NCBI RefSeq assembly: GCF_019711655.1
Contig: NZ_JAIGNU010000002.1
Coordinates: 62,001-126,000 of the forward strand
Source of the DNA: Qipengyuania mesophila
GTDB taxonomy: Bacteria; Pseudomonadota; Alphaproteobacteria; Sphingomonadales; Sphingomonadaceae
Length of the DNA: 64,000 bases
Direction: 5' to 3'
Position 1 is the first letter of the stretch, and the number at the start of each line of letters is the position of its first letter. The position numbers and the translations under genes were made by a program. A model generated the notes under the pieces. That model saw only the letters and a program-made list of their open reading frames with translations, did no database searches and was not told the DNA's origin. This document shows, piece after piece, positions 5,898-47,384 of the stretch.

Positions 5898-6653
5898 ATG
5901 CCTGCCACCCCCGCCTGGCCGCCCAAGAGCGCCCCTCGCCTGTTCGTCGAGCACGCCCTGTCCGCCGACCAGCCCGTGCAGATCGAGGGCAACCAGGCGC
6001 ATTACCTCGCCAAGGTGATGCGCGTGACCCCCGGCGACGCTGTGATCCTGTGCGATGACGTGACCGGCGAATGGGCCGCCGAAGTGATCGAAGTGGCCAA
6101 GCGTCACCTCCTTCTCCAGCCCCGCGACCACCAGCGCCCGCGCGAACCGGTGCCCGATTTCTGGCTCTGCCCCGCACTGCTCAAGAAGGACCGCTTCGAC
6201 ATGGTGCTCGAAAAGGCGACCGAGCTCGGCGCCGCGCGGATCGTCCCTGTCATCACGCGCCGCTGCGTCGCCGACAAGCTCAATGCCGAACGCGCCGCCA
6301 CGGTGGTCACCGAAGCCGCCGAACAATGCGCGCGCACCGCACTGCCCGAAGTCGCGCCGGTGACGAAGCTCGAGGCGCTGCTGCGCGGCTGGCCGCAAGA
6401 ACGCCACCTGTTCTTCGCCGACGAGGAGGGCGGCGAGCCGGCGGCCGATGCCTTCTGCTACGCCGAGGGGCCCGCCGCGCTGCTGGTCGGGCCCGAAGGC
6501 GGGTTCGACGATGCCGAGCGCGCCGCGATCCGCGCGCATCCGGCATCGGTCGCGATCACCCTCGGCCCGCGGATCCTGCGCGGCGAAACCGCGGCGATCG
6601 CCGGCATGGCGGTATGGATGGCCGAGGCCGGCGACTGGATCGACGAAGAATAA
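5898..6653 (+). CDS. rsmE: 16S rRNA (uracil(1498)-N(3))-methyltransferase RsmE
   Basis: 251 aa SPOUT methyltransferase. An N-terminal PUA-like part (RLFVEHALSADQP..NQAHYLAKVMRV) is followed by KKDRFDMVLEKATELGAARIVP and the SAM-binding knot LLVGPEGGFDDAE near residue 195 and LGPRILRGETA near 223, all hallmarks of RsmE. It methylates U1498 of 16S rRNA in assembled 30S subunits. The frame is open for 800 bp upstream, but family alignment places the start at ATG 5898. Followed 41 bp later by gshA in the same direction. Confidence 0.94.
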   Translation: MPATPAWPPKSAPRLFVEHALSADQPVQIEGNQAHYLAKVMRVTPGDAVILCDDVTGEWAAEVIEVAKRHLLLQPRDHQRPREPVPDFWLCPALLKKDRFDMVLEKATELGAARIVPVITRRCVADKLNAERAATVVTEAAEQCARTALPEVAPVTKLEALLRGWPQERHLFFADEEGGEPAADAFCYAEGPAALLVGPEGGFDDAERAAIRAHPASVAITLGPRILRGETAAIAGMAVWMAEAGDWIDEE

Positions 6654-6694
6654 TTTCCTTTCCACGCAAGGTTCCGTTTCCTAACGAAACCGGC

Positions 6695-8065
6695 ATGAGC
6701 ACGCGCGACATCTCCGCCAAGGAAGATCCCATCATCGAATCGCGCGACCAGTTGGTCGCCCCGATGCAACTCGGCGAAAAGCCGGAGGCGGACTGGCGCA
6801 TCGGCACCGAGCACGAGAAGCTCGTCTATTGCCGCAAGACCTTCAAGGCGCCGTCCTACGACGAGCCCGGCGGCATCCGCGACATCCTGATGGCGCTGAC
6901 CGAGTTCGGCTGGGAGCCGATCGAGGAAGGCGGCAAGGTCATCGCGATGAAGGGCGACGATGGCACGGTCAGCCTCGAGCCCGCCGGCCAGCTCGAACTC
7001 TCGGGCGCTCCGCTCGAGAACCTGCACCAGACCTGCGCCGAGACCGGCCGGCACCTCGACCAGGTGAAACAGGTTGGCGAACGCTTCGGCGTGGGTTTCC
7101 TCGGCCTCGGCATGTGGCCCGACAAGACCCGCGCTGAGCTGCCGGTGATGCCCAAGGGGCGCTACGAGATCATGATGCGGCACATGCCGCGCGTCGGCAG
7201 CCTCGGCCTCGACATGATGCTGCGCACGTGCACCATTCAGGTCAATCTCGACTATTCGAGCGAGGCCGACATGGCGCAGAAGTTCCGCACCGGCCTCGCG
7301 CTCCAGCCGCTGGCAACAGCGCTGTTCGCCAATTCGCCCTTCACCGAAGGGAAGCCCAACGGTTACCTGTCGTATCGCAGCCATATCTGGAGCGACACCG
7401 ACCCGCATCGCACCGGCATGCTGCCCTTCGTCTTCGAGGACGGCTTCGGCTACGAGCGCTGGGTCGACTACATGCTCGACGTCCCGATGTATTTCGTCTT
7501 CCGCAACGGCAAGTACATCGATGCCGCCGGCCTCAGCTTCCGCGATTTCCTCGACGGCAATCTCTCGGTCCTGCCCGGCGAAAAGCCCACCCAGAGCGAT
7601 TGGTGGGATCACCTCTCGACCGCATTCCCCGAGGTCCGCCTCAAGAGCTTCCTCGAAATGCGCGGCGCCGACGGCGGTCCGTGGAGCCGCATCTGCGCGC
7701 TGCCCGCCTTCTGGGTGGGCCTGCTCTACGACCAGGCCGCGCTCGATGGGGCCTGGGATCTCGTCAAGCACTGGACGATGGAAGAACGCGAGGAACTGCG
7801 CAACGCGGTACCGAAACTGGCGCTCGACGCGCCGATCCCGGGCGGCGGCAAGCTGCGCGACCTGGCAAAGGACGTGCTCGCCATCTCGCGTGCCGGGCTC
7901 GCCGCGCGTGGCCGCTACAACAGTTCGGGCGACAACGAGACCGGCTTCCTCGAGACGCTCGACGAGATCGTCGCTAGCGGCAAGGTTCCGGCGCAGGTCC
8001 TGCTCGACCGCTACCACAGCGAATGGGGCGGCGACATCAAGCGCGTCTACAAATACAGCTTCTGA
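6695..8065 (+). CDS. gshA: Glutamate--cysteine ligase (alphaproteobacterial/plant type)
   Basis: 456 aa enzyme making gamma-glutamylcysteine, the first step of glutathione synthesis. RIGTEHEKLVY near residue 38, MKGDDGTVSLEPAGQLELSGAP and MMLRTCTIQVNLDYSSEADM are family signatures of the class II/plant-like ligase. Two redox cysteines known from plant enzymes are not evident. Start at ATG 6695 follows a gap after rsmE. A glutathione pool is consistent with the two GST-rich regions and GFA protein later in the window. Confidence 0.93.
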   Translation: MSTRDISAKEDPIIESRDQLVAPMQLGEKPEADWRIGTEHEKLVYCRKTFKAPSYDEPGGIRDILMALTEFGWEPIEEGGKVIAMKGDDGTVSLEPAGQLELSGAPLENLHQTCAETGRHLDQVKQVGERFGVGFLGLGMWPDKTRAELPVMPKGRYEIMMRHMPRVGSLGLDMMLRTCTIQVNLDYSSEADMAQKFRTGLALQPLATALFANSPFTEGKPNGYLSYRSHIWSDTDPHRTGMLPFVFEDGFGYERWVDYMLDVPMYFVFRNGKYIDAAGLSFRDFLDGNLSVLPGEKPTQSDWWDHLSTAFPEVRLKSFLEMRGADGGPWSRICALPAFWVGLLYDQAALDGAWDLVKHWTMEEREELRNAVPKLALDAPIPGGGKLRDLAKDVLAISRAGLAARGRYNSSGDNETGFLETLDEIVASGKVPAQVLLDRYHSEWGGDIKRVYKYSF

Positions 8066-45066: not shown

Positions 45067-45228
45067 ATGCGGCTGATCGATGCTCTCCGGCACCTCGCCT
45101 TGGGCGAAGGGTCCGATCCCGATACCGGGCTGGCGCATCGTGAACGCTCGCTGTCGCGCGCGCTGGCGCTGCTCGCCGCGATCTTCCTGCTGCTCGGCTT
45201 CGGCCTCTTCGTAATTCTCTACGGCTGA
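45067..45228 (+). CDS. Uncharacterised 53-aa single-span membrane protein
   Basis: 53 aa from ATG 45067: MRLIDALRHLALGEGSDPD... then a C-terminal membrane helix (LARALALLAAIFLLLGFGLFVILYG-like, residues 31-53). Eleven bp after ruvX and in the same direction. Its end overlaps the convergent cupin-like gene by 10 bp. Codon use matches the neighbours, so I regard it as real. No known family. Confidence 0.65.
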   Translation: MRLIDALRHLALGEGSDPDTGLAHRERSLSRALALLAAIFLLLGFGLFVILYG

Positions 45229-46115
45229 ATCGCGGCGCGGCGCAGACGCGCTTCCCCGGCCAGCATGAGGCTCCCGGCCCGCTCCGCCTCGCGCCACAGG
45301 CCATCGCGGTCCGCGTCGCAGTCGAGCAGTCCGCTGCGCGCCTCGAAACTGGCCAGCCGCATCCGGGCGCTGGGGTGCGTCCGGCCGAAGCATTCGGCAA
45401 GATCGAGCGCCTCGGCATCGCCCAGCGCCACCGCGCAGCGCAGGAAGGTCTCGCTGGCGGAGGGATTGAGGATTCGCGCCACAGCCGAGCGCTCGAGATC
45501 AAAGCCGTATTGGTCGAACCAGTCCTGCCCCGCATCGACCCGCATGACGTTGAGCGAAACTGACGTGGTCACCGGCGGAAGCTGCGCGTGGACATCGACA
45601 TGCGCGCGATAGTGCATGAGCTTGCCTTCATGGAGCGCGCTGCGCTCGGCGAAGCGCAGCGGAACCTCCTCGCCCGAGAAGCCGGCGATCGCCTCGTAGT
45701 CGATCTCGTAATAGTCGCTGCGGTAGCCGGGTCCGAAATAGCCCGCGGTGAGAAAGTCGAAATTGTGATCGTGCGGGATCCCGTAGACGAAGCTGCGCGC
45801 GCCGCTGGAGCGAAAGCAGCTCTCTTCCTCGCTGGGCCAGATATTGGCGCGCAGAAAACAGCCGCCCCGCAGCGGCGAGAGCACGATCGCCTGCGGGCCG
45901 TAGGCGCTGTCCTCGAAGGCGTCGCGATGCCGCTCCCGCAATTGCGCGACCAGCAGATCGCCGAGAAAATGGCGGTTGTTGGCCAGCCGTTCGAGCGCCG
46001 CGGCGGCCTCCAGCGTGCTGGCCTCGTCGCGCGGGTCGAAGCCTTGCGCGAGCGCGTCGATCGTCTCTGCGAGACTGGCGGTGCCCGCCTGCGTATTGGC
46101 GATCACGCGAGGCAT
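45219..46115 (-). CDS. Uncharacterised cupin-like metalloprotein with helical tail (third gene of peptide operon)
   Basis: 298 aa. Residues 1-75 are helical. The middle resembles a cupin: GIPHDHNFDFLTAGYFGPGY (His115, His117) as motif 1, and EGKLMHYRAHVDVHAQLPPVTTSVSLNV (His168/172/176, then N189) as motif 2. That is a plausible Fe/Zn site, as in cysteine dioxygenase-like or 2-oxoglutarate-type enzymes. Residues 210-298 look like HEAT-type helices (SASETFLRCAVALGDAEALDLAECFG). No family I can name with certainty. Overlaps the preceding gene by 13 bp, so it is co-translated. Confidence 0.75.
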   Translation of the reverse strand: MPRVIANTQAGTASLAETIDALAQGFDPRDEASTLEAAAALERLANNRHFLGDLLVAQLRERHRDAFEDSAYGPQAIVLSPLRGGCFLRANIWPSEEESCFRSSGARSFVYGIPHDHNFDFLTAGYFGPGYRSDYYEIDYEAIAGFSGEEVPLRFAERSALHEGKLMHYRAHVDVHAQLPPVTTSVSLNVMRVDAGQDWFDQYGFDLERSAVARILNPSASETFLRCAVALGDAEALDLAECFGRTHPSARMRLASFEARSGLLDCDADRDGLWREAERAGSLMLAGEARLRRAAIQP

Positions 46116-47083
46116 GGCTCAGGCTCTAGATTCGCGAGTCGTGGGTGCGTTTCGACCAGCCCCGCGCGCAGATTCCGCGCGGGGCCGGACAACGCATCGG
46201 CAGGGTCCTTGGCAATGCTCGACAGCACGCGGAATCCCGCGGCAGTGTCGAGCGCGAGGCATTCGCGCAGGGCCTGCCACCGGAAATGCTCGCTGCCGCC
46301 TGCACCGTCCAGGGCGAGATCGGCGAGCACCGGCACGGCATCGGAGCGCCCCATGCGGCCGAGCAGCGCCATCATCAATTCGTGCTGGCTCTCGCGTCGG
46401 TCGCCGCTGGCGCGATGGAGCAAATTGCCGGACGGGAGCGCGAAGCGGCGGGTCGGCCGCGGCGCCTCGGCGAACCGGATCAGGCACAGGATCAGCAATC
46501 GCCCGCGCACCGCGCGCAGGATATGCGATTGGGCGGGGCCGCACAGGGCAATCACGCGACCCTCGCCAACCTGCTGACGACGCTCGACAATCGTCGCATC
46601 CGCACCGTTTTCGCTGGCGATTTCGAGCAGGCCGAACTCGCCTGCACCGGCCAGTACGACGTCGTGTCGCTCGGCATCGGGGAAGGTTGCGCTTGTCGCT
46701 TCGAAGCTCGGCGCCCCTCGATCGTAAAGAGCGAAACCCAGCGTCGCGCGCCCCTTCCGGGCAATCTGCAGGTAGTGAAATCCGGATCCCGACTGGTGGC
46801 GAAAGGCGAGTTGCGCCAGGGGATAAGCGCGCTGCAAGCCCACCAGACGGCGCACAAATGGTTCAATCGCCCTTCGCGGATTCCCCTCTGCTGCGAACAG
46901 CGTCGCGAGATGTGTGCAGTCGGAGAGAAAAGCTCCGGCCCCATAGGCTTCGAGGTCGGTCAGGACAGGCGCCAAAGCAGGATCGTCCCGGCATTGTCGC
47001 ACCACCTCGACCACCGCCTCGCGCATGACGCGCTGCGCGGCATGGTCGCCGCGCAGCGCACCGATCTGCGGATCGATCTGCAT
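46103..47083 (-). CDS. Uncharacterised protein with beta-rich centre and HEAT-like C-terminus (second gene of peptide operon)
   Basis: 326 aa. Residues 1-90 are helical; the centre (about 95-200) is beta-rich (FHYLQIARKGRATLGFALYD, HDVVLAGAGEFGLLEI, GRVIALCGPAQSHILRAVRGRLLILCLIRF), a possible degenerate cupin without an obvious HxH pair. The C-terminus (210-320) has paired helices with an EHFRWQALRECLALD motif. It shares architecture with the next gene, suggesting ancient duplication. It starts 14 bp after the 50-aa peptide gene. Function unknown. Confidence 0.72.
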   Translation of the reverse strand: MQIDPQIGALRGDHAAQRVMREAVVEVVRQCRDDPALAPVLTDLEAYGAGAFLSDCTHLATLFAAEGNPRRAIEPFVRRLVGLQRAYPLAQLAFRHQSGSGFHYLQIARKGRATLGFALYDRGAPSFEATSATFPDAERHDVVLAGAGEFGLLEIASENGADATIVERRQQVGEGRVIALCGPAQSHILRAVRGRLLILCLIRFAEAPRPTRRFALPSGNLLHRASGDRRESQHELMMALLGRMGRSDAVPVLADLALDGAGGSEHFRWQALRECLALDTAAGFRVLSSIAKDPADALSGPARNLRAGLVETHPRLANLEPEPCLA

Positions 47084-47097
47084 CGTCCGCCCGCGGG

Positions 47098-47250
47098 TCA
47101 GAGCAACATGTCGATCAGCGAATGGTCGTAGACATAGACCATGATCGCCACGATCGTGTCGTCCGACCCGCCCGCCGACAGACTGCCGAACAGGCCCGTC
47201 GCCGCCTCGAGCTCGGGCAGGCTGCCCAGGTCGATCTTGGGAAAATCCAT
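47098..47250 (-). CDS. 50-aa peptide, candidate precursor of a modified peptide
   Basis: Starts MDFPKIDLGSLPELEAATGL, then FGSLSAGGS, then an acidic/hydrophobic C-terminus (DDTIVAIMVYVYDHSLIDML + L). The start is set by a near-perfect Shine-Dalgarno AGAGGAGGAG ending 4-5 nt before ATG 47250. The layout (polar leader with alternating hydrophobics, Gly/Ser hinge, aromatic and acidic tail) resembles RiPP precursors, but no characteristic lanthipeptide, lasso or thiopeptide residues are present: no Cys, a Thr/Ser-poor tail. First gene of a three-gene operon. A small regulatory or structural protein is the alternative. Confidence 0.65.
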   Translation of the reverse strand: MDFPKIDLGSLPELEAATGLFGSLSAGGSDDTIVAIMVYVYDHSLIDMLL

Positions 47251-47384
47251 CAACTCCTCCTCTATCCCCAGCATCCGTCGAACCCCCTGTTCCCGTCTGC
47301 CGCGATCCAGGCTGACCGAGCGTGGCAAGAAGAAGTATTTAAAGGATTGTAAGGTCTGCGGCCGCGCGGCTATCGCAGCCCGCG

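Follow-up and report, generated by a model that had tools for sequence, protein, structure and literature searches.

A precursor-like peptide gene heads a three-gene operon

A tight operon of three genes, PEP-G2-G3, occupies 47250 to 45219 on the minus strand of the window, the 64,000-nucleotide stretch of Qipengyuania mesophila DNA analyzed here. Its first gene, PEP (47098..47250, minus strand, stop codon included), translates to the 50-residue peptide MDFPKIDLGSLPELEAATGLFGSLSAGGSDDTIVAIMVYVYDHSLIDMLL, which can be divided into a putative leader (residues 1–23), a linker (24–30), a core-like segment (31–42), and a variable tail (43–50). It is followed by G2 (46103..47083, minus strand), whose 326-residue product combines helices, a predicted cupin fold (residues about 95–225), and a HEAT-like C-terminus, and bears no invariant histidine set. 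Last comes its probable paralogue G3 (45219..46115, minus strand; 298 residues), marked by near-invariant R89, W93, H115-D-H117, H176, Q178, and N189 and thereby a candidate three-histidine metal site. G2 begins 14 bp past the PEP stop, and the G2 and G3 reading frames overlap by 13 bp.

The PEP start codon lies in the context GATAGAGGAGGAGTTG-ATG. An earlier, sequence-only reading of this DNA had assigned an AGGAGG-type ribosome-binding site to ATG 47250, and the element, AGAGGAGGAG (47254..47263, minus strand), is indeed present. Its predicted anti-Shine–Dalgarno duplex of −12.0 kcal/mol is the strongest among all 1,825 ATG contexts of the window, in which both strands together hold 32 copies of AGGAGG. 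The residue numbers quoted in that reading for the 50-residue product were also all correct on translation. An in-frame TTG at 47251–47253, between the Shine–Dalgarno element and the ATG, is a possible alternative initiation codon. The very strong site is peculiar to this strain, its orthologues having ordinary ones such as GGGAG or GGAGA. Since this strength is not shared, it is little informative on the family, whereas protein conservation is. PEP orthologues, 43–78% identical, are encoded by 40 of 60 congeneric (Qipengyuania group) genomes, and pN/pS against close relatives falls between 0.23 and 0.44; these orthologues and the purifying selection acting on them indicate that PEP is a real gene, beyond chance. 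Conceivably, PEP could be a translated upstream reading frame that merely sets the translation of G2–G3, as the 14-bp spacing and the powerful Shine–Dalgarno site might suggest, but the conservation of its amino acid sequence (pN/pS of 0.39 in two segments) and the recurrence of this peptide type across genera make such a role very improbable.

The operon has a fixed address in the genus. At all 39 other genus loci PEP is divergent to a hotdog thioesterase gene pair and followed by G2, with G3 next in 38 and ruvX beyond G3 in 37. A profile search found no G3 match in any of the 20 PEP-less genomes among the 60, a set that holds no positive control of its own, although the same profile detects G3 elsewhere in the genus. 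The thioesterase gene is present in 18 of these 20, and in 15 of the 18 ruvX sits 42–277 bp from it, leaving an empty site. Decaying copies are also encountered: L049 retains a truncated G2 without G3, L050 a broken G2, and L064 carries a deletion. PEP and G2/G3 are therefore strictly linked and jointly lost, which gives PEP a conserved, co-encoded partner that is putatively its modifying enzyme; that G3 is the enzyme is suggested by its invariant residues.

The interval separating PEP from the divergent thioesterase gene contains an element (47338..47375) that reads TTTAAAGGATTGTAAG...GCTATCG on the plus strand. The AT-rich portion of this element, TTACAATnTTTTAATT when read on the minus strand, hardly varies where the operon is present and mostly missing from the empty-site genomes, most of which retain only a GCTATC-like −10. 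The GCTATC probably serves the thioesterase gene as its −10. The AT-rich element may pertain to that gene as well, and for this reason was set aside as a proven PEP promoter.

Two constrained segments flank a variable linker

Alignment of 36 PEP orthologues reveals M1, L11, G19, F21, G22, D31, and Y39 as exceptionless, and Y41 as retained in most of the genus. Pooled pN/pS amounts to 0.39 for residues 2–23, 0.67 for the linker (24–30), which also changes in length, 0.39 for residues 31–42, and 0.96 for the tail (43–50), values that are relative only, given the large synonymous change. The sequence-only reading had split leader from core at a Gly-Ser hinge. That division survives in outline, as two constrained segments do surround a Gly/Ser-rich linker, but GG27-28 is not conserved in the genus; the boundary suggested by the alignment is the variable linker at about 24–30 rather than a fixed Gly-Ser. 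For the same reason GG27-28 was set aside as a fixed cut site. The alignment was also run against the opposite pattern, a tail kept and a leader not, and gave the reverse, with residues 2–23 at 0.39 and the tail at 0.96. In having a conserved leader and a separable constrained segment, with linker and tail both variable, PEP resembles a RiPP precursor.

The Tyr, Asp, and His residues that the same reading proposed as modification sites fare unevenly. The conserved stretch within what it called the tail is DDxxVxIMVYxY[DE], so that D31 and Y39 are genus-invariant and Y41 is mostly kept, but D42, H43, and D47 lie in or border the variable end, and none of these residues is conserved family-wide. 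Because the tail varies, these positions are mostly unsupported as modification sites. Across the wider family, the last 25 residues are devoid of Tyr in 19 of 132 unique peptides; since neither Tyr nor Asp is universal there, both were set aside as universal modification sites.

Distribution and the character of distant precursors

G3 is found in 88 of 249 Sphingomonadaceae genomes (about a third), representing 44 of the 96 genera sampled. It is found in 5 of 385 class-sample genomes, one of the five lying outside the family, and also in two genomes from other families of the phylum and in one more (class sample, n = 274). A scan of public contigs returned G3 from Qipengyuania, Erythrobacter, Altererythrobacter, Novosphingobium, and others. 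A search of a phage collection gave no match.

At 44 loci from other genera the order PEP, G2, G3 is nearly always kept. Exactly one ATG reading frame of 30–75 residues, led by a Shine–Dalgarno site, stands at the expected place in 38 of the 44, and in 37 of these 38, chosen irrespective of hydrophobicity, the most hydrophobic 9-mer falls within the C-terminal half. The 44-locus comparison and the 38-locus test are free of hydrophobicity bias, unlike the counts over the 132 unique peptides, which come from a list scored in favor of hydrophobic frames. Distant precursors have highly divergent C-terminal halves (e.g., IIIAIAVF, GIIAVAILIF, VIVVAVVIFL) but usually retain an acidic front of the LP.L type together with a hydrophobic end. 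The window PEP contains no Cys, which occurs in only 12 of the 132 unique peptides. That no heteroatom side chain is universal in the core counts against a RiPP-like reading.

Several loci depart from the common plan. Three genomes (G508, G566, and G662) each harbor two divergent G3 copies with differing precursors, exemplified by L109 and L110 from G508. In L103, the sole Shine–Dalgarno-led short frame found upstream of G2 has a Pro/Gly-rich, non-hydrophobic tail, unlike the others. In L296 the usual peptide was not found upstream, which also counts against the RiPP-like reading; on the opposite strand, at about 6652–6802 (minus), this locus holds a 50-residue candidate, MKDEIFDELQNTTEIQ...GFGCIDSE, preceded by AGGAGG and without a hydrophobic C-terminus. 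A Vibrio plasmid (L294, NZ_CP080241.1, 3009–4565) carries a reduced G2/G3-like pair near a Tn3 transposase, and a 59-residue frame comes after the pair.

Two loci with neighboring exporters

No exporter, protease, or immunity gene was recognized adjoining the operon in the window, another point against the RiPP-like reading. Two loci elsewhere are differently equipped. On the Alteromonas stellipolaris plasmid CP013927 the order is HlyD-like protein, MacB-type ATPase and permease, two short frames, G2, G3, ABC ATPase, and ABC-2 permease. The two precursor-like frames, each led by a Shine–Dalgarno site and encoding 38 and 41 residues, lie at 2621–2734 and 2836–2958 of L293 (CP013927.1 64122–72904), before a single G2–G3 pair. 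The second ends GAACFGIGMAVGVYLNQLR and is similar to Cys-containing sphingomonad cores. The Sphingomonadaceae locus L123 has genes for a C39-peptidase ABC exporter and for an HlyD protein divergent to the peptide. Exporter queries over about 130 other loci gave a full-length match in L123 only.

It is mainly because of these two loci that a RiPP-like reading is preferred to one in which PEP serves a cofactor pathway or as a regulatory subunit. For the sphingomonad operon, it counts against the RiPP interpretation that it leans on two unusual loci, the Alteromonas plasmid and L123. A chromosomal operon at a single fixed site in the genus, devoid of an exporter and encoding a peptide with an invariant Y39 and a mostly retained Y41, could also supply the starting peptide for a cofactor or signal used inside the cell, in the manner of PqqA for PQQ, rather than for a secreted product. 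This appears unlikely in view of the many relatives without Tyr, the co-loss of the operon in a third of the genus, the linkage to an exporter or C39 peptidase at the two loci, and a conserved gene set that includes no radical SAM protein.

G2 and G3 as a probable cupin–HEAT pair

Searches of Pfam, NCBIfam, and PADLOC with PEP, G2, G3, and their whole alignments produced weak HEAT matches only, and a PDB sequence search with the G2 and G3 profiles gave nothing useful. Compared with each other, profiles built from 134 G2 and 139 G3 sequences match at E=1.7e-5 over 267 columns, a comparison that had been uninformative with small alignments. Since they align along most of their length, the two are probably full-length paralogues sharing helices, cupin, and HEAT-like parts. 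In the G2 model (pLDDT 88) helical parts flank a cupin. Thiol dioxygenases head its VIA ranking (Z 10–11 over about 160 residues), whereas Foldseek ties them with other cupins; the modeled fold is thus best described as a cupin with no single nearest family.

The histidines tell the paralogues apart. The commonest His columns of G2 reach only 69, 66, 49, and 40%. In G3, by comparison, H115 and H117 are present in 138 of 139 sequences (the remaining one is gapped) and H176 in all 139, and R89, W93, Q178, and N189 are kept in nearly all. From this pattern we infer a three-histidine metal site in G3. The AlphaFold model of G3, built from a narrow alignment, has a pLDDT of 56 and a poorly modeled cupin domain, which counts against the RiPP-like reading; a fold search with it returned helical-repeat matches with Z under 7, which were set aside. 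The best alignment of G3 to cysteine dioxygenase (CDO) proteins brings the HDH and the subsequent H of both into register, yet the profile comparison (E=0.16) is not significant, a further point against, and among the matches listed for 28 G3 proteins there is no CDO_I (PF05995).

These features invite comparison with thiol dioxygenases (CDO, PF05995; plant PCO/ADO), which share the cupin fold of the G2 model (Z about 11) and the H-D-H...H arrangement aligned in G3, but Pfam CDO_I does not match and the profile similarity of G3 is not significant. Moreover, G2 and G3 add a HEAT-like domain and come as a paralogue pair, and the window PEP offers no Cys. One might still suppose, from the top VIA ranking and the aligned histidines, that G3 acts as a thiol-type dioxygenase on small molecules, with PEP serving the G2/G3 complex as a regulatory or structural subunit. 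This is judged improbable: the C-terminal half of PEP is strongly variable between genera where the putative G3 site is not, two PEP-like frames precede one G2–G3 pair on the Alteromonas plasmid, and the profile and Pfam comparisons with CDO fail.

A somewhat better, if still unlikely, case can be made for PEP as a small hydrophobic peptide that stays unmodified and is membrane-active or bacteriocin-like, with G2 and G3 binding it, chaperoning it, or protecting the producer from it. Binding surfaces are what HEAT-like domains usually provide, an ABC-2 transporter follows G2/G3 on the Alteromonas plasmid, and the C-terminal half is hydrophobic in 37 of 38 frames picked irrespective of that property. 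Against it, the three invariant histidines of G3, together with its near-invariant R, W, Q, and N across 139 sequences, look catalytic, and an exporter is absent from most loci.

Comparison with known peptide-modifying systems

The closest documented parallel found is the cupin-like hydroxylase PbsQ of the biphenomycin-type pbs cluster, which acts on a ribosomal precursor peptide (PMC12257519). PbsQ is related to a JmjC-domain protein, and its pathway includes an MNIO, an arginase, and a B12-rSAM enzyme (PMC12257519). Both systems couple a cupin-like protein with a ribosomal precursor, the enzymatic role of G3 being presumed from its residues, but they differ in enzyme type and setting, and PEP-G2-G3 includes no MNIO, arginase, or B12-rSAM. 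The short operon of precursor, candidate iron oxygenase, and partner also recalls the MNIO (DUF692) RiPPs and their partner proteins; unlike these, G2 and G3 match neither a DUF692-type enzyme nor an RRE model in Pfam or NCBIfam. Partners typical of lasso peptide or PQQ-type systems (RRE, transglutaminase-like, Asn-synthetase-like, or radical SAM proteins) are likewise absent from the operon.

Double-glycine, C39-exported peptides and microcins resemble L123, with its divergent C39 ABC exporter and HlyD protein, and some distant precursors whose linker ends in GG or AG; a C39 exporter is lacking at most loci, that of the window among them, and the genus does not conserve GG. Membership of the double-glycine leader class was set aside, there being no conserved GG/GA/GS site in the genus and a C39 exporter in L123 only. 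No description of the PEP-G2-G3 operon was found in the literature searched, though absence there is not proof.

A proposed RiPP-like pathway and its significance

On balance, PEP-G2-G3 is probably a compact RiPP-like biosynthetic operon in which the PEP precursor is modified by G3 with G2 as its partner. PEP would be the ribosomal precursor, with residues 1–23 as leader, 24–30 as a flexible linker, and a hydrophobic segment rich in beta-branched Val and Ile around 31–42, plus the variable tail, as core. G2, its predicted cupin fold stripped of the conserved histidine set, would be non-catalytic, pair with G3, and probably help hold the precursor. G3, through its three invariant histidines, would probably bind a metal such as Fe(II) and oxidize the core. 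Trimming and export of the product may then fall to proteins whose genes lie elsewhere in sphingomonad genomes, or to neighboring exporters at the few loci that have them. Here we infer the modification, metal, pairing, cleavage site, product, and role alike. Because the core persists as Val/Ile-rich, oxidation of aliphatic positions by G3 is the most economical guess, and only a guess. More tentatively still, and with the chances leaning against it, the operon may define a new RiPP class, common in Sphingomonadaceae and present on at least one plasmid of a gammaproteobacterium; in this class a cupin–HEAT paralogue pair, one active and one not, would oxidize unactivated Val and Ile of a hydrophobic core.

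None of the family libraries used names PEP, G2, or G3, though the operon resides in about a third of the sampled family genomes. If G3 does modify PEP, a cupin–HEAT pair would be added to the known peptide-modifying machinery, and the family would offer a simple three-gene system with more than 100 natural precursor variants from which substrate rules could be read.
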